A stretch of DNA of 64,000 bases from Cloacibacillus sp. An23 (lineage in GTDB: Bacteria; Synergistota; Synergistia; Synergistales; Synergistaceae): the NCBI RefSeq assembly GCF_002159945.1, contig NZ_NFJQ01000007.1:62001-126000 (forward strand). The letters are read 5' to 3'. The notes beneath the pieces are model-generated. The model was not told the origin of the DNA. It did no database searches and saw only the letters and a list, made by a program, of their open reading frames with translations. Made by a program: the position numbers and the translations under genes. Below are positions 9,428-49,025 of the stretch, one piece after another. Positions within the stretch are counted from its first letter, which is position 1. Every line of letters starts with the position of its first letter.

Positions 9428-10612
9428 CTATAAGATCTCTATATTCGGCTGCGCCTTCGCCTCGTCCAGAAGCGCCTCGCTGATTTCAAATTCGTCCAGT
9501 GCGAGGGTGCTGCGAAGGCGGACGATGCGCGGGCGTTCCATGTCTATGAAACGGCACGTTTTCACAGCCGCTTCCACGGCCTCTTCCTCGGTTTCCATTA
9601 TCACAGGTATTTGGCAGGCCGTCGGGTTGCAGCAGGCAAAGCCGTTGGCGTACATCGCCTTGAGATCCAGTTTTTCAAAAAAACGGCGCGTGATGAAATC
9701 GGCGGTGTTGACCGCGATTCCGTTGCCGTGGCTGGCTTCGGTCAAATCGCAGACTACTATGCGCTGTATCTTCGGCCCTGTAAAGTTTTTCATTGGGCCT
9801 GCGCTGCTGCGCCCAGTTATATTCGGGTCCATTCCGGCGCCGCTTATGTCTTTTCCGAAATTTTCAACTATCAGCACGTCGACGGTTTCAAACGGGATGC
9901 GAGGGAAGAGCCGTTTTGATTCTTTAAGCAGTTCAGGCTCGCGCGAAAAAAGTTCGCCGCCCGGCACGGCTTCGATCAGGGCCGTATCGTCGTAAGCGTT
10001 TTCGACTATCGCGAGGCCGAAGCGCATATCCACGCAGGAAAGGACTTTTCGCCCCGCCTCTGGAATAATGCGGGCGAAGTCCGCCGTGCCGTACATGTGC
10101 AGCGTGTTGGCCCCTTTCGCCTTGCCGAAGCCGACGCACATCATCTTCACAAGTCCGCTCTCTATAGGGCCGGAAAAGTCAGTATGCAGCTTGACGCGGT
10201 TGACGGGGAGCACCCAGTCGGCTTCGAGCGCGGCTTTTGAAAAATAGACGGGAATGCCGGTTTCGCTTTCTCCGAGAAGCTCCGTTTCCATGGAATCGTC
10301 TATGGGAATCCCTATGGCTTCTTCCGTTATACCGTACGATGCGAGAGTTTCGCGCTGTCCTTCCGGCGTCGCGCCGCCGTGGCTTCCCATAGCGGGGACG
10401 ATGAATGGCTTCGCGCCGCGCTCCGTCAGGCAGTCTGCCGCGGTTTTTACGATTTCGGCCAAATTGCGTATCCCGCGGCTGCCGCACCCTACCGCGACGC
10501 GGTCTCCAGAATGCACGAACCGGCCGATTTCCTGGCGCTCGAACTGTCCGCGGACGACGGAGCGAATGTCCTCTATCCTGCGGGAATCAAATTTCTGACG
10601 TATCCGTATCAT
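9428..10612 (-). CDS. LarA-like (DUF2088) nickel-racemase family protein 2
   Basis: Second LarA/DUF2088-superfamily protein (394 residues). It is clearly paralogous to the protein at 7867-9165: both have PAMGSHGG.T.EGQ.ETLAS, a TDF.GPIESGL segment and DISGAGMDPNITGR-like sequence. I use ATG 10612 (MIRIRQKF) because it has AGAGG at correct spacing and aligns with an internal methionine of the first copy. The longer frame upstream lacks support. It is the last gene of the DapA/NhaC operon. Two non-identical LarA-like proteins at one locus suggest epimerases for two substrates or stereocentres, or a heteromer; this is inference. Confidence 0.83.
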   Translation of the reverse strand: MIRIRQKFDSRRIEDIRSVVRGQFERQEIGRFVHSGDRVAVGCGSRGIRNLAEIVKTAADCLTERGAKPFIVPAMGSHGGATPEGQRETLASYGITEEAIGIPIDDSMETELLGESETGIPVYFSKAALEADWVLPVNRVKLHTDFSGPIESGLVKMMCVGFGKAKGANTLHMYGTADFARIIPEAGRKVLSCVDMRFGLAIVENAYDDTALIEAVPGGELFSREPELLKESKRLFPRIPFETVDVLIVENFGKDISGAGMDPNITGRSSAGPMKNFTGPKIQRIVVCDLTEASHGNGIAVNTADFITRRFFEKLDLKAMYANGFACCNPTACQIPVIMETEEEAVEAAVKTCRFIDMERPRIVRLRSTLALDEFEISEALLDEAKAQPNIEIL

Positions 10613-10718
10613 ATTCAAACCTCTTTTTACGAGATAAGCATATTGAGGAGAAAGGCCGGCCTTTCCCCTCTTTTTGACAAACATTGCCGCGCGGCCGGCC
10701 GCGCGCGAATTTCAGAAC

Positions 10719-12233
10719 TTAGCCGGCTTTGCCCTCGGCTTCAAGTTCCGCCATAGATTCGACGCTTCCTTCTTCCGATTCTATCTCGGCCATAAGTTTC
10801 GCCTGCTCCTCGTCGGAGAGGTTGAACATGCCGATGTTGAACGCCGCCAGCAGGAGCGCGATGACCGGGCACATATAGCTGAGGGTCAGATACTTGAAAT
10901 AGCCGCCGGCTCCGTAGATCGATACGCCGAGAGTAGCCATGTAGAAGGCTCCGGACTGTCCCCACGGGAAGAGGCAGGAGACCGTCGTTCCGACATCTTC
11001 AAGAGTACGTGAAAGGGCGGGAAGGCCGAGCTTGTTCTTAACGTAGCACTTTTTCCATGCCGCGCCGACGAAGACTGAGCTGAGGTAGGAAATGCCCGCG
11101 ACTGCGTGAACGACGAATATTGCTATTTCAGCGGTGAAGACTGCTTTGACGCGCGTGTTGGCGAAATTCATGAGCGGCTCGACTGCCTTGTCTAGTATGC
11201 CGCAGCGAATCATGATTGCGGTGAGAGAGAAGCCGGTGTAGCAGATCATGACCGTGTTCGCCATCGAGATCATGCCTCCGCGGTTGAGCAGATATGAGAC
11301 TTCATATAATATGTCCATTCCCTGCGGGGCGACGGTCGTAACTTTGAAGCCGCTTATCGCGGCGATCGTGCCGACCTTCATCGTAAACGCGGGCCCCTGG
11401 AAGACGACTCCGCAGATAACGGCGAGGGCGCTGGATATAATAAGCGAAGGGATCGGCGGCTTCTGCATCACGGCCAGCACGAGCAGTACGACGACCGGAA
11501 GGAGGAGCACCGGGGTCAGGTTGTATATTTCGTCAAGCTGAGCGATTACGGCGACGGCGGAATCCGGGGCTTCGGCGAGGCCGCCGGAATGAAGGCCGAG
11601 GACCGTATAAAAGATGATTGCGATCAGCCACGCCGGCATCGTCGTGTACAGCTGCGAGTAGACGTGGCTCCACAGGTCGTTTCCGACGCAGGCTGGGGCG
11701 AGGTTTGTCGTTTCGGACATCGGGGAAATCTTATCTCCGAAGATCGCTCCGGAGATTATCGCCGCAGCCATGATCGCGTCGTTGCACTCAAGTATGCGGC
11801 CTATCGTCATGCAGGCGATGCCGCCCGTGGCGACGGAGGTCCAGGAAGATCCGGTCAGCACGGAAAGCGCGGAGCAGACCAGCAGAGCGCTGACATATAA
11901 GAATTTCGGGCTGATAATTTCAAAGCCGTATTTTACCAGCAGAGGAAGCGTGCCGCTGAACATATTCGCGCCGAGATAAAGGCCGATCAGCCAGAGAATG
12001 CAGACCGTCGGAGCCAGATGTCCCAGCTTCGCCGAGATGGCTTTCTCCAGCTCAACCCACGTATAACCGAGGTTGTAAGCGAAAGCCGCCGCAATGATGG
12101 CGGCGAAAAGCATCGTAGCCTGCACCGGTATGCCGAGAACCATGGCTCCGATGACTATGCCGAAAACAAGAACGACGCAGAAATAGGCTTCCCCGTACGA
12201 CGGGATCCGTTTTGCTTTGGCTGCTTTACCCAT
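10719..12233 (-). CDS. NhaC family Na+/H+ (or Na+/solute) antiporter
   Basis: Polytopic membrane protein of the NhaC family (504 residues). It has typical motifs such as GSSWTSVATGGIACMTIG, FGDKISPMSETTNLAPA and the late LEDVGTTVSCLFPWGQSGAFY. Founders exchange Na+ for H+, and relatives exchange malate/lactate or amino acids. Within a catabolic operon it may export a product or import the substrate. The start is set at the second Met (12233) because the GGAG abuts the first ATG directly but is nine bases from the second. It lies 40 bp after the DapA-like gene. Confidence 0.92.
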   Translation of the reverse strand: MGKAAKAKRIPSYGEAYFCVVLVFGIVIGAMVLGIPVQATMLFAAIIAAAFAYNLGYTWVELEKAISAKLGHLAPTVCILWLIGLYLGANMFSGTLPLLVKYGFEIISPKFLYVSALLVCSALSVLTGSSWTSVATGGIACMTIGRILECNDAIMAAAIISGAIFGDKISPMSETTNLAPACVGNDLWSHVYSQLYTTMPAWLIAIIFYTVLGLHSGGLAEAPDSAVAVIAQLDEIYNLTPVLLLPVVVLLVLAVMQKPPIPSLIISSALAVICGVVFQGPAFTMKVGTIAAISGFKVTTVAPQGMDILYEVSYLLNRGGMISMANTVMICYTGFSLTAIMIRCGILDKAVEPLMNFANTRVKAVFTAEIAIFVVHAVAGISYLSSVFVGAAWKKCYVKNKLGLPALSRTLEDVGTTVSCLFPWGQSGAFYMATLGVSIYGAGGYFKYLTLSYMCPVIALLLAAFNIGMFNLSDEEQAKLMAEIESEEGSVESMAELEAEGKAG

Positions 12234-12273
12234 AAATTTCATCTCCTCTTGTGTGATTGATTGTATGCAGAAA

Positions 12274-13179
12274 TTATTTCCTGACGCCGAGCGCGCCGAT
12301 TATTTTGTCCAGTTCGGAGCGCAGCCCCGCCGAGCAGGGCTTTAGAGGCGTGCTTACTTCGCCTGCGTCGACGCCGATTTTCCTCATCGCGTACTTCATC
12401 GGTGCCGGATTTGTTTCAGCGAACAGCAAGTTGAAAAGAGGATAATATTTCTTCTGGAAAGCGGCGACAGCCTCGACATTCTTCGCCTTCGCGTCTTCAA
12501 ACGCCTTGACCCAGGCCGCCGGTATCAGGTTGGCCGAAGCTATGACCGCCGCTTCCGCGCCGAACAGAACGTGCCCGCACATCATCAAGTCTTCGCCGCT
12601 CATGACCGTACATACGTTTCCTACGCTGTGGACGAGTTCGACGCAGCTGGCGAAAGCCGGAGAACATTCCTTGATGCCGCAGCAGTTCGGAACGTCCCCG
12701 GCGAGACGGGCGAAGGTTGACGGTTTTATGTCGGTGTGGTTCTTATATGGGATGTTATAAACTAAAAAAGGACTGTTAAAACCTTCGTCGAACTTTTTGA
12801 AGAAATCATAAATTCCGTCCTGCGAGGGCGTTACGTAATAGGGCGTGAGTACGAGCGGGACGTCAGCGCCCGCCTCGCGGAATAAGTTCGCCGCTTCCAC
12901 TGAATCGCCTATTCCAGGCTCAAGCACCCCAGCGACTACAGGCACTCGGCCTGCCGCGGCGCCGGCAGCCGCCCTGACGGCGCGGACGCGCTCATTCATC
13001 GTGAGCGAAACGTATTCACCGCTGCCGCCCAGGACGAGTATCCCGCTGATTCCGCTCTCAATCTGCCAATCCACCAGCGATTTCATTTTCGCTTCGTCTA
13101 CCGTGTTGTTTCCGTCGAACGGAGTGACGACCGCCGAAATAACGCCGGAGAACGGTTTGCCGTTGAACATAAATTTCAT
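12274..13179 (-). CDS. DapA/dihydrodipicolinate synthase family aldolase or lyase
   Basis: Class I aldolase of the DapA/NanA superfamily (301 residues). It forms a Schiff base with pyruvate and makes or cleaves a 2-oxo acid. The active-site Tyr is in YNIPYKNH and the Schiff-base Lys in CGIKECS. The usual GTTGE loop reads GGSGEY, which argues against true DapA and for a KDG aldolase, 5-keto-4-deoxyglucarate dehydratase or similar catabolic role. It is the first gene of an operon with NhaC and a LarA-like protein. The start has GGAGG at seven-base spacing; an upstream in-frame start at 13206 lacks a site. Confidence 0.9.
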   Translation of the reverse strand: MKFMFNGKPFSGVISAVVTPFDGNNTVDEAKMKSLVDWQIESGISGILVLGGSGEYVSLTMNERVRAVRAAAGAAAGRVPVVAGVLEPGIGDSVEAANLFREAGADVPLVLTPYYVTPSQDGIYDFFKKFDEGFNSPFLVYNIPYKNHTDIKPSTFARLAGDVPNCCGIKECSPAFASCVELVHSVGNVCTVMSGEDLMMCGHVLFGAEAAVIASANLIPAAWVKAFEDAKAKNVEAVAAFQKKYYPLFNLLFAETNPAPMKYAMRKIGVDAGEVSTPLKPCSAGLRSELDKIIGALGVRK

Positions 13180-13388
13180 ATCTGCACCTCCGTAATTTTG
13201 TTGCAAGCTTTAACCGTAGATGACAGGGGTCATCACAGAAGCTTTTATGCGCGCCTCCTTTCTATAAAAATCTTTACATACGCCGAAAATTCCATCGAAA
13301 CGTGTTCGGCGTAGCGCATAAACCGCATTATAAATTTCTGCGTAACGTGCGGCGGCACTTTTTAATACATAAGGCAAAAATTTTAACA

Positions 13389-13711: not shown

Positions 13712-14497
13712 ATGAACAAAAAGCGAAAACAGTTGATTGAAAAACTACTTGAAAAGATTCAGAGCGGTGAAATTGTCACCGGCGACAAACTCATGCCGGA
13801 GCGAAAGCTGGCTGAGATTCTCGGCGAAACGAGGCCGGTGCTGCGCGAGGGGCTAATAGCGCTTGAAGCCATGGGGGTTCTCGATATCAGGGACCGTCAG
13901 GGGTTTTTTCTTTCTTCCGCGGAAGAAAGCGACGCGCAGAAAATGCTTCAGGCGGTCAGGAGCTGGCCGGCTGACACACTTTCGCGCGCGATGGAAGTGC
14001 GCCAGATAATTGAGCCGCCGGCGGCCGGCATAGCCGCGGCGCGGCGCAGCGAGAAAGCGTTGACGAAAATGCGCGAGTGTCTAGAAAAAATGAAAGAGCT
14101 CTCCAGCGAAGAGTCGGAGACTGCAAACAGGGAGGGCGCGTACTGGAACACGGCGTTTCATATAATCATAGTAGAAGCTACGAAGAACGCTTATATGTCG
14201 CGCATATATGAGAGCGTATGCGCCGTTATGGAGCAGGGGGTGTCCGTGATGAGGATAAACACCGACCCGAAGGACGCTGGCGGACGCTCTATCTCTTATA
14301 GGGAGCACGCGGAGCTTTACAGATTGATCGAGGCGCGCGACGTCAGAGGCGCCGAGCTCGCAGCGGAGGCGCACTTGAAAAACACTATCGCCGCTTTCGT
14401 AAAACTCGGACAGATTGCGCCGGCGGCCGATTTGTTTTCCCAGGGGTTTATCGGCCTTTTCCGCCGCGACGGCGTAAAGGAGACAGAAAGCGAATAA
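13712..14497 (+). CDS. GntR family regulator, FCD domain (regulator 2)
   Basis: Paralogue of the regulator at 7079-7834 (261 residues from the chosen start). The winged-helix segment GETRPVLREGLIALEAMGVL is nearly identical in both, so the two should read the same DNA site. The FCD domain follows from EVRQIIEPPAAGIAAARR. ATG 13712 matches the N-terminus of the paralogue and has GGAG nine bases upstream; the in-frame start at 13631 adds an unsupported tail. It is divergent from the DapA-like operon. The effector domains differ more than the DNA-binding domains, which suggests different or overlapping inducers. Confidence 0.91.
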   Translation: MNKKRKQLIEKLLEKIQSGEIVTGDKLMPERKLAEILGETRPVLREGLIALEAMGVLDIRDRQGFFLSSAEESDAQKMLQAVRSWPADTLSRAMEVRQIIEPPAAGIAAARRSEKALTKMRECLEKMKELSSEESETANREGAYWNTAFHIIIVEATKNAYMSRIYESVCAVMEQGVSVMRINTDPKDAGGRSISYREHAELYRLIEARDVRGAELAAEAHLKNTIAAFVKLGQIAPAADLFSQGFIGLFRRDGVKETESE

Positions 14498-14563: not shown

Positions 14564-14592
14564 TTGACAGCGCGCGCGGCTCGTAGTATTAT
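14564..14592 (+). promoter_or_regulatory. promoter of the symporter attenuator operon
   Basis: TTGACA (14564-14569), 17 bases, TATTAT (14587-14592). The start of transcription would be near 14599, about 50 bases before the leader peptide. Confidence 0.75.
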
Positions 14593-14647
14593 CCGCTTTA
14601 GTTACAAAAAGTGATAAAGATTTTCGAAGGAAAAGGAGGCCTGGGCG

Positions 14648-14752
14648 ATGAGAGTTTTTGAGTTTGAGCGCTATTTTTATTACTCTTACGCTTATCCCCG
14701 CGCGTCACGCCTCGGGGCTTCCGGTGTTTTCTTCGAAGTAAAGAGCGCATAG
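14648..14752 (+). CDS. Tyr/Phe-rich leader peptide of an attenuator
   Basis: A 34-residue frame with a strong AGGAGG eight bases before its ATG. It begins MRVFEFERYFYYSYAYPRAS: five Tyr and three Phe within residues 4-16, followed by a later Phe-Phe pair. It sits between a good promoter and an intrinsic terminator, ahead of a transporter operon. This is the layout of amino-acid-controlled transcription attenuators. Stalling at Tyr (or Phe) codons would prevent the terminator forming. It is too short for ordinary gene callers. The regulatory role is inferred from composition and arrangement. Confidence 0.75.
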   Translation: MRVFEFERYFYYSYAYPRASRLGASGVFFEVKSA

Positions 14753-14778
14753 AGCAATACTTGCGAGCAGCTTCAAAG

Positions 14779-14812
14779 GACCGCCGCCCTCCGGGGCAGG
14801 CGGTCTTTTTTT
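14779..14812 (+). terminator. attenuator terminator
   Basis: GACCGCC-GCCC stem pairing with GGGC-A-GGCGGTC, followed by seven T. It ends 27 bases after the leader peptide stop and 52 bases before the first downstream gene, so it must be bypassed for transporter expression. Confidence 0.85.
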
Positions 14813-14863
14813 GCGCCGCGTGGAAAATAAAACTCTGGCAAAGTTATGAAAGGAGAATGCTGT

Positions 14864-14962
14864 ATGTTTGGAATGGATTTGTGGGTGTTGTGCGCAGGGG
14901 CGTCGCTCGTCTGGAGCACGGTCTGGTCCGTCGCTTCGATCGTAAGGAGGGCGGTGAGGTAA
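14864..14962 (+). CDS. symporter small accessory protein
   Basis: A 32-residue membrane peptide beginning MFGMDLWVLCAGASLVWSTV and ending in a basic RRAVR tail: one transmembrane helix with three Trp. Its stop overlaps the symporter start (TAATG) and AGGAG lies upstream. Very small proteins starting MFG/MLG directly before sodium:solute symporter genes are a recognised family of accessory subunits, comparable in position to YhdT or YjcH. Function is inferred from position and composition. Confidence 0.75.
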   Translation: MFGMDLWVLCAGASLVWSTVWSVASIVRRAVR

Positions 14963-16398
14963 TGGCTTTTCTCGCACTTTGGGCGGCCTACGCCGTTCTT
15001 CTCGTCTTTATCGCGAAGTACTCAAGCAGCCACGACGCGCTGCTTCCCGGTCGCGTCGGAGTCGTCGTGCAGGCCCTCGCCTATGTCGCGACTTATATTT
15101 CCGCGGTCGCGCTGGTCGGCTTCGGCGGGCTCTGCTATATGTACGGCCTGCAGATGCTGCTCGTCGCTGCGGGCAACGTCTGGTTCGCTGCGTGGTTCGT
15201 CTACAGGTTCCTCGCGTGGCCGACGCGGCTGTGGCAGCGCAAGCTGAACGCGCGCACGCCGGCGGAGCTTCTCGCGAAGGCCTACAACGCTCCGGCGCTC
15301 CAGACTTTCATCGGCGCGATCTCGGCCGTGCTGCTCGTCGTCTACGGCTCTGCGGTCTTCAAGGGCGCGGCCTTCATGGTCGCGGGCGTCCTGCCGGTCT
15401 CGATGGAGACGGCGCTGGTCGTCCTCGTCGCGATAGTCGGCCTTTCGGTTATTTTCGGCGGGCTGCGCGGCGTTCTCTACACCGAGGCTTTTCAGGGGCT
15501 CGTGATGATAGTCGGCGTCGGCGCGCTGCTCGTTGCGGTGATGCGCGAGGTCGGCGGCCCGGTGGAAGGGCTCGCGAAGCTCGCGGCGCTGCCGCCTACG
15601 GAGGGCGCGAACAGGGGCTTTACGGCGCTTTCCGAGGGGGCCGGCGGCCTTAACGTCATTTTCCTCGCCGTGGTGACTTCGATAGGCATCTGGGCGCAGC
15701 CGCAGCTCATCCAGCGCCACTTCGCGCTGCGCAGCGTGGACGAGACGAGGCGCGCCGCGCCTCTCGCGGTGCTCGCGCTGTCGGTCGTCGTCGGCGGAGC
15801 GTACTTCGCGAGCGCTGTCTCGCGCGTCATGCTCGGAGACGGCATCACGAACCCCGACATAGTCCTCCCGACTCTCGTCAACCGCCTGCTTCCGGCCTTC
15901 GGCCAGCAGATGTTCGCCCTCGCCATCGTCTCCGCGGCGCTTTCGACGGCCTCGGCGCTGCTCCACATCGCGAGCGGCAGCCTCGGGCGCGACGTGTTCA
16001 AACGCGAGTTGAAGGGCTGGTCGTGGCGGCTGACGGTGCTTCTCTGCACGGCGGCGAGCGGCTACTTCACGCTCAAGAGCGGCGCGATAATCGCGATGAT
16101 CCACACTACGAGCTGGACTCTCATAGCCTGCGCGATAATGGTTCCCTACCTTGCGCTGCTCGCCTTCGGCCCGAGGACCGGCGCTGCCGGAGTCATAGCG
16201 AGTTCTGTAGGCGGCTTCGCCGGCGCGATAGGCTGGTACCTTCTCGCCTACGCTCCGACGTCGGCCGCGGCGACGGGCCTCAGCGCTCCGGGAATGCTCG
16301 GCGCGCTGCACCCGATAATCCCGGGCGTCATCGCCTCGGTGGCCGTCTTCGCCCTCTGCGCGAAGCGCGCCGCAGCCCCCGCGGCGGTGAAGGCGTAG
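14962..16398 (+). CDS. sodium:solute symporter (SSS) family transporter
   Basis: Polytopic inner-membrane importer of the SSS family (478 residues, about 13 helices), driven by Na+. Family-type features include NARTPAELLAKAYNAPALQT in the first loop, GGLRGVLYTEAFQG and GIWAQPQLIQRHFALRS. The start is fixed by AAGGAGGG and by the TAATG overlap with the accessory protein; the longer frame to 14761 crosses the terminator. SSS members carry sugars, amino acids, acetate, pantothenate or proline. The Tyr/Phe-rich leader peptide upstream suggests an aromatic amino acid or related compound, as inference only. Confidence 0.9.
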   Translation: MAFLALWAAYAVLLVFIAKYSSSHDALLPGRVGVVVQALAYVATYISAVALVGFGGLCYMYGLQMLLVAAGNVWFAAWFVYRFLAWPTRLWQRKLNARTPAELLAKAYNAPALQTFIGAISAVLLVVYGSAVFKGAAFMVAGVLPVSMETALVVLVAIVGLSVIFGGLRGVLYTEAFQGLVMIVGVGALLVAVMREVGGPVEGLAKLAALPPTEGANRGFTALSEGAGGLNVIFLAVVTSIGIWAQPQLIQRHFALRSVDETRRAAPLAVLALSVVVGGAYFASAVSRVMLGDGITNPDIVLPTLVNRLLPAFGQQMFALAIVSAALSTASALLHIASGSLGRDVFKRELKGWSWRLTVLLCTAASGYFTLKSGAIIAMIHTTSWTLIACAIMVPYLALLAFGPRTGAAGVIASSVGGFAGAIGWYLLAYAPTSAAATGLSAPGMLGALHPIIPGVIASVAVFALCAKRAAAPAAVKA

Positions 16399-48827: not shown

Positions 48828-49025
48828 GTTGCGTGCCTGTTTCCTTTGGAGATAGGAATTTTATATAGCGTCCGCGGAGTAGGGAATTCGGTAAAAAGCC
48901 GAAGCGGCCCCTGCCACCGTAATCGGGACGAAACCGCATTCGCCATTGCGTTTTTTGCGAGAAGGCGCGGGAGTAGGATGAACGAGAGCCGGGAGACCTG
49001 CCGCGGAGCGTTTGAGGCTTCAATG
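48828..49025 (+). promoter_or_regulatory. cobalamin riboswitch
   Basis: RNA aptamer for adenosylcobalamin-type corrinoids. Conserved blocks are seen in order: GTGCCTG at the 5' side, GGGAATTCGGT, AAGCCGAAGCGGCCCCTGCCACCGTAA for the core (in parts), GGGAGTAGGATGAACG, and the B12 box GAGCCGGGAGACCTGCC at 48986-49002. It lies in the leader of a TonB-dependent receptor gene and should repress the whole uptake operon when corrinoid is plentiful. Confidence 0.9.

Follow-up and report, generated by a model that had tools for sequence, protein, structure and literature searches.

What does the short, tyrosine-rich ORF upstream of a sodium:solute symporter (SSS) gene in Cloacibacillus sp. An23, an amino-acid-fermenting bacterium, do, and what does it say about the cargo of the symporter? 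The window, meaning the whole 64 kb stretch of DNA that was analysed, is part of a 2.9 Mb genome in 31 contigs (G000), and the named relatives of the symporter belong to the Synergistaceae. The original prediction was that the ORF is the leader peptide of a transcription attenuator, in which Tyr and Phe codons control the symporter. Codons of this kind name the signal, and they thereby offer a testable substrate, which is rare for a transporter of a broad family.

Organization of the locus

All of the features of the locus are on the forward strand. A sigma-70 promoter at 14564-14592, with the -35 hexamer TTGACA (14564-14569), a 17 nt spacer and the -10 hexamer TATTAT (14587-14592), matches 11 of the 12 consensus positions in a consensus scan and is as originally described. 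It was kept in all 17 orthologous loci checked, with TTGACA, a spacer of 17-18 nt and a near-consensus -10, and the distance from promoter to leader start in these loci is 41-66 nt. A box resembling CTTTAC..ACGAAAAGTGGTAAAG, at and after the transcription start (14597-14630), is also found in several orthologs and is possibly an operator or a hairpin at the 5' end.

The leader ORF (14648-14752) begins with ATG at 14648, ends with TAG at 14750-14752, and encodes MRVFEFERYFYYSYAYPRASRLGASGVFFEVKSA in 34 codons plus the stop. It is preceded by a Shine-Dalgarno sequence, AAGGAGG (14633-14639), and a similar site lies 5' of nearly all orthologous leaders. Residues 4-16 include the five Tyr and three Phe that had been predicted, the Phe being codons 4, 6 and 10. 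Among the 1573 small ORFs of the 64 kb window (12-60 aa, all starts, both strands), this is the only one with at least four Tyr per eight residues; it has five, and a Shine-Dalgarno sequence. The control codons, defined by a peptide alignment of orthologous leaders, are Tyr 9, 11, 12, 14 and 16 (14672-14695). A ribosome-binding site, a short ORF and clustered codons for a single amino acid are all present at the locus, and translation of the leader is predicted.

The leader is followed by an intrinsic terminator (14779-14812), GACCGCCGCCC-UCCG-GGGC-A-GGCGGUC and then U7. The G+C-rich hairpin occupies 14779-14805, the seven T expected from the original prediction are at 14806-14812, and the stem was calculated by folding to be worth -21 kcal/mol. 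A simple terminator scan of the window did not list the hairpin, probably owing to its bulge, and it was folding that found it.

The transporter genes 3' of the terminator are also as foreseen. A hydrophobic ORF of 32 codons, MFGMDLWVLCAGASLVWSTVWSVASIVRRAVR (14864-14962), precedes the SSS gene (14962-16398), the stop of the first overlapping the start of the second (TAATG); 14962, where the originally predicted element ended, is merely the end of this small ORF. It had no match in NCBIfam or Pfam. Nearly every orthologous locus has it as its first gene, and it is probably an undescribed small membrane partner of the symporter. The SSS protein (478 aa) matches Pfam SSF PF00474 with an E value of 5e-33 (114.9 bits, cut-off 22.8). 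It reached the cut-off of no NCBIfam equivalog, those of PutP, PanF and the other known SSS types included, the best score being that for panF (98.7 bits, cut-off 328), and had no characterised close relative among the sequences compared.

Conservation of the leader

Of the 188 genomes of the phylum, 26 have an ortholog of the symporter (57-80 % identical), and this number includes the genome of the window. One (G004) was left out of the comparison as its contig ends at the gene. The 25 readable upstream regions comprise those of 20 genomes of the window's family, with 18 distinct upstream sequences, and those of five genomes (G061, G062, G090, G182 and G183) that belong to three other families, giving four Synergistales families in all. 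The locus of G017 is readable in part only, with the contig end falling inside the leader.

Conservation of the Tyr codons in relatives had been named beforehand as a point on which the prediction might fail. A Tyr-bearing leader, followed by a terminator and then the symporter, was present at all 25 readable loci. Examples of the leaders are MGKALFNNNYYYYFYAYPRTYDASGFLVFSTK, MPADMFRNVSYYYAYSYPRCDHASGLLVFSAKSESA, MATSQAFVFNYYYYLYFTPHRTDSGEVGCCMKAG and MQQAQKRGQLGSYVYSYIYAPRRYDAGEVRTCSRGA. Two are weak, namely those of G001, which has Y-A-Y only, and G044 (VGKAYMYRCHRCYYADPC / YMYRCHRCYYADPC). The G044 leader (L016) has drifted to a mix of Cys and Tyr, YMYRCHRCYYADPCSY, and is no longer matched by the covariance model; the drift is possibly a change of signal.

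Both Tyr codons are used in the orthologous leaders (TAT 72, TAC 23), and the amino acid is therefore what is kept. The number and spacing of the Tyr vary, from two to eight. Within the window's family a Y-x-Y-P-R block is well conserved, Tyr14 and Tyr16 being its Tyr pair. The Phe codons showed no conservation across orthologous leaders in the peptide alignment and, in the window, lie too far 5' of region 1 (see below) for a stall to mask it. Phe was therefore rejected as a co-signal, and of the Tyr/Phe control proposed originally the Tyr part stands and the Phe part does not.

Downstream of the Tyr run, the main family conserves the bases GCCTCGGGGC..GGTGTTTTC..CGAAGT. Small length changes alter the frame in which they are read, which is R-L-G-A-S-G-V-F-F in the window, R-L-G-A-N-G-V-F-C at locus L017 and A-S-G-x-x-V-F-S in the rest. 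Likewise, family f10 reads CCCCGC in region 1 as T-P-H, not P-R. In either frame the leader ORF reaches the end of region 2 or further. As the bases are kept although read in another frame, the alignments show that this later part of the leader acts as RNA. The leader frame assumed in the original prediction is thus conserved up to the Tyr-Pro-Arg block, and beyond the block only the RNA is.

Alternative RNA structures

Four segments can form competing helices. Region 1 (14696-14700) is CCCCG, within codons Pro17-Arg18, and is complementary to CGGGG at 14713-14717. Region 2 (14711-14739), CUCGGGGCUUCCGGUGUUUUCUUCGAAGU, lies inside the leader ORF and is the 5' half of an antiterminator. Region 3 (14771-14795), CUUCAAAGGACCGCCGCCCUCCGGG, is the 3' half of the antiterminator and is shared with the 5' arm of the terminator. 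Folding for an antiterminator, proposed with the original prediction as a check on it, paired 14711-14739 with 14771-14795, which comprises the terminator's 5' arm and the bases preceding it, so that an antiterminator that excludes the terminator is present at the locus. With a ribosome masking the RNA up to region 1, the antiterminator has a folding energy of -19 to -31 kcal/mol in main-family loci.

In an alignment of 15 loci, the structure that combines the terminator with 1:2 had 92.9 % of its cells paired, versus 40-59 % when slid; double changes were seen in four pairs, and none of 500 shuffles reached the covariation score. For the antiterminator, 89.3 % of cells were paired, versus 37-55 % when slid, there were again four pairs with double changes, and two of 500 shuffles reached the score. 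The 2:3 duplex is stronger than with random synonymous codons in most loci (mean z -2.3, 14 loci). The window's own duplex, where codon use is G+C-rich, had no such excess (z -0.02).

The 1:2 pairing, which would serve as pause hairpin and anti-antiterminator, is likely to be real, though it is less certain than 2:3. In the 15 loci 98.7 % of its cells were paired, with no double change there, and the energy of the helix was not above that of synonymous randomisation (mean z 0.0). Stronger evidence for it comes from comparing families: the main family has CCCCG/CGGGG, f2 and f6 share CUCCG/CGGAG, a compensatory change from C-G to U-A, and G054 has CCCGC/GCGGG.

A further complementarity was seen between the Shine-Dalgarno region of the leader (14616-14650) and region 2 (14709-14742), with z -4.5 in the window and z -3.0 at L017. 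It is strong only in these two, the shifted-frame loci, and is outside the classical model, and it was rejected as part of the core mechanism.

Proposed mechanism

Judged on its sequence features, the two-gene operon for the small membrane protein and the SSS symporter is very probably controlled by a Tyr-responsive, ribosome-mediated transcription attenuator. Conservation at all 25 readable loci and an antiterminator with covariation support this, which was the core of the original prediction. We infer the positions of the ribosome and the response to tyrosine as follows. Transcription would begin a few bases past 14592, and a ribosome would then start on the leader. When charged tRNA-Tyr is plentiful, the ribosome would move beyond the Tyr codons and enter region 2, all of which lies within the leader ORF. 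Region 2 would then be occupied or, after the ribosome leaves, paired with region 1 (CCCCG:CGGGG), leaving region 3 free for its own 3' arm, and the U7 terminator would stop transcription. When tRNA-Tyr is uncharged, the ribosome would stall with Tyr14 or Tyr16 in the A site, covering region 1 and leaving region 2 free to pair with region 3, so that the terminator would be blocked and the symporter made.

The Tyr14 (14687-14689) and Tyr16 (14693-14695) codons are just 5' of region 1 and 15-21 nt 5' of region 2 (14711). Going by these coordinates and the footprint of the Escherichia coli ribosome, a stall at either would cover 14696-14700 and leave 14711 onward free. A stall at Tyr9-Tyr12, or at Phe 4, 6 or 10, should leave region 1 wholly or partly free and give poor antitermination. 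This geometry agrees with the conservation of the Y-x-Y-P-R block and with the lack of conservation at the Phe codons.

Relationship to known attenuators

The classical leader-peptide attenuators of Proteobacteria are those of the trpL, hisL, leuL, pheL and pheM type. The window locus shares with them a promoter, a short ORF with control codons, a layout of regions 1-2-3-4 in which the 1:2 pairing is likely, and an antiterminator that competes with a terminator, and its assignment to the leader-peptide attenuators is strongly supported by these sequence-level features. Unlike them, it has Tyr codons, a transporter rather than a biosynthetic operon as its target and an ORF that runs through all of region 2, and it is found in the Synergistota. 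Leader-peptide attenuators for other amino acids are on record for Proteobacteria, Actinobacteria and Firmicutes (PMC1262725, PMC2965389, PMC9413887), and the leaders of Actinobacteria are of the classical type (PMC1262725).

For tyrosine, the E. coli aroF-tyrA attenuator is, as cited in PMC2659441, a proposal involving Tyr-tRNA and no more (Camakaris 1980), and control of Tyr biosynthesis in E. coli is mainly transcriptional (PMC11878033). Phe/Tyr uORFs before shikimate genes appear only in the legend to Fig. 6 of PMC6429828, and uORFC-13-1 lies before aroF in Acholeplasma (PMC8632094). As far as these sources describe them, all three are aromatic-linked like the window locus but are found before biosynthetic genes, not a transporter. 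The TIGR03647 motif is a conserved RNA before the TIGR03647/TIGR03648 sodium/solute symporter pair (PMC6429828) and, like the window locus, precedes genes for a small and a large subunit; unlike it, the motif has no uORF reported in that paper. The window's symporter scored 40 bits against TIGR03648 (cut-off 321). The literature searched, which covered few subscription journals, contained no Tyr leader in front of a transporter, and Tyr attenuation of a transporter appears to be unreported so far. The locus also documents classical attenuation in the Synergistota, and for Tyr, whose ribosome-mediated control is little documented.

The same element before other genes

A covariance model (R1) extending from the Tyr run to the terminator was built on the main family only and run on the 188 genomes. 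It matched directly upstream of symporter orthologs in families f2, f6 and f10 (G062, G090 and G183). In G048 and G049 it also found YYYCYYAYPR, a Tyr leader that precedes another SSS gene (27 % identical). A Phe version, FYFYWFFTFPR, is directly 5' of aroE in G014 (L075:1384-1485) and G013 (L076), both of which also have the Tyr version. The aroE call for G014 has 256.7 bits against NF001319 (cut-off 252) and 242.7 against TIGR00507 (cut-off 200).

A second model (R2), consisting of the R1 element without the codon region, found the Pro-rich leaders LPCYPCP, LPCSPRP and LPSPCLPRP before proC in G061, G062 and G001 (TIGR00112, 228-242 bits, cut-off 197). The Pro leader and terminator are directly before proC at L080 (G062) and L083 (G061), on the minus strand, and at L113:869-1027 (G001). 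In G061 and G062 the proC operon with its Pro leader is immediately upstream of the symporter operon with its Tyr leader. Eight weak R2 matches were inspected singly and, beyond the proC leader of G001, none was credible as a leader. A DNA pattern of fixed spacing, allowing three mismatches and applied to 53 genomes, was abandoned as chance matches swamped the signal.

R1 also gave a weak match in a genome from outside the order (G054; L078, minus strand). Here an eight-Tyr leader, SYCVYYYYYYYLKP, has an antiterminator and a terminator of its own and stands before DctP/DctM TRAP genes.

Where the function of the downstream gene is known, the control codons follow its pathway (Phe for aroE, Pro for proC). 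The Phe/aroE and Pro/proC versions form a natural codon-swap set that bears on how attenuators shift specificity. On balance we favour the view that the Synergistota have a modular attenuator cassette, in which the RNA is reused and the codons are swapped to suit the gene (Tyr for two SSS symporters, Phe for aroE, Pro for proC, and a Tyr leader of the same plan for TRAP genes), and that the window's symporter founds an SSS subfamily of tyrosine importers.

The cargo of the symporter

As a probable Tyr-responsive attenuator precedes it, and as control codons match the pathway where the downstream function is known, we infer, on good grounds, that the symporter is most likely an importer of tyrosine. 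The genomes that carry it were examined for tyrosine biosynthesis genes. Six near-complete symporter-bearing genomes (G017, G042, G043, G044, G046 and G047) lack aroC, tyrA and pheA altogether, as does G049, which has the other SSS gene, and these organisms must therefore import tyrosine. All three genes are present in the window's genome. Across the family, symporter presence and shikimate pathway loss were uncorrelated (Fisher p 0.48-1.0), and auxotrophy is therefore supporting context, not proof. None of the six flanking proteins at the window locus had a homolog in the short stretches available around 20 other loci, and synteny therefore gives no clue to the substrate.

The attenuator may be real and Tyr-controlled while the cargo is another aromatic compound, a dipeptide or an unrelated solute, with Tyr-tRNA serving as a general starvation signal. 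The breadth of the SSS family, in which no equivalog model reached its cut-off for this protein, allows for this, and the Tyr-rich leader of G054 stands before TRAP genes of a class usually linked to organic acids. We nevertheless consider another cargo somewhat unlikely, given the match of codons to pathway for aroE and proC and the many carriers of the locus that are unable to make tyrosine.

Other readings of the leader

A Tyr-controlled attenuator is preferred over three further readings. The nascent YYxYxYPR might itself stall the ribosome, in the manner of the arrest peptides TnaC and ErmC, perhaps with free tyrosine as the ligand. The conserved Y-x-Y-P-R of the window's family is compatible with this, as Pro after Tyr could slow peptide transfer, but the Pro-Arg codons fall on the RNA element CCCCG, whose bases f10 reads as T-P-H, the Tyr vary in spacing and in number (two to eight), and paralogs have Phe or Pro in their place. 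Moreover, arrest induced by tyrosine would increase import when tyrosine is abundant, and we regard an arrest peptide as improbable.

It is more improbable still that a T-box or metabolite riboswitch governs the terminator, with the Tyr-rich ORF incidental. The terminator is of the attenuator type, but leader codons, antiterminator and terminator together explain the conserved bases, and the ORF is kept through synonymous changes of its Tyr codons. No Rfam covariance model for a T-box or known riboswitch matched at the locus, and the only match in the window at gathering score is a cobalamin riboswitch at 48858-49019. Just as improbable is a small functional peptide whose transcript the terminator merely ends, for despite a good Shine-Dalgarno sequence and a conserved Tyr-rich half, the C-terminal half is in a different frame in two loci with its bases kept, a consensus scan found no further plus-strand promoter between terminator and symporter, and the element recurs before other transporter and biosynthetic genes.

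Other features of the window

Upstream of the attenuator, the genes at 9428-13206 (minus strand) encode a nickel-pincer cofactor-dependent isomerase (NPN group 22), an NhaC/ArcD-type antiporter and a dapA-like aldolase, and probably form an operon for the catabolism of a hydroxy or amino acid. A gene for a GntR/FCD regulator (13718-14497, plus strand) is divergent from them. The cobalamin riboswitch is on the plus strand and matches RF00174 with 87 bits.
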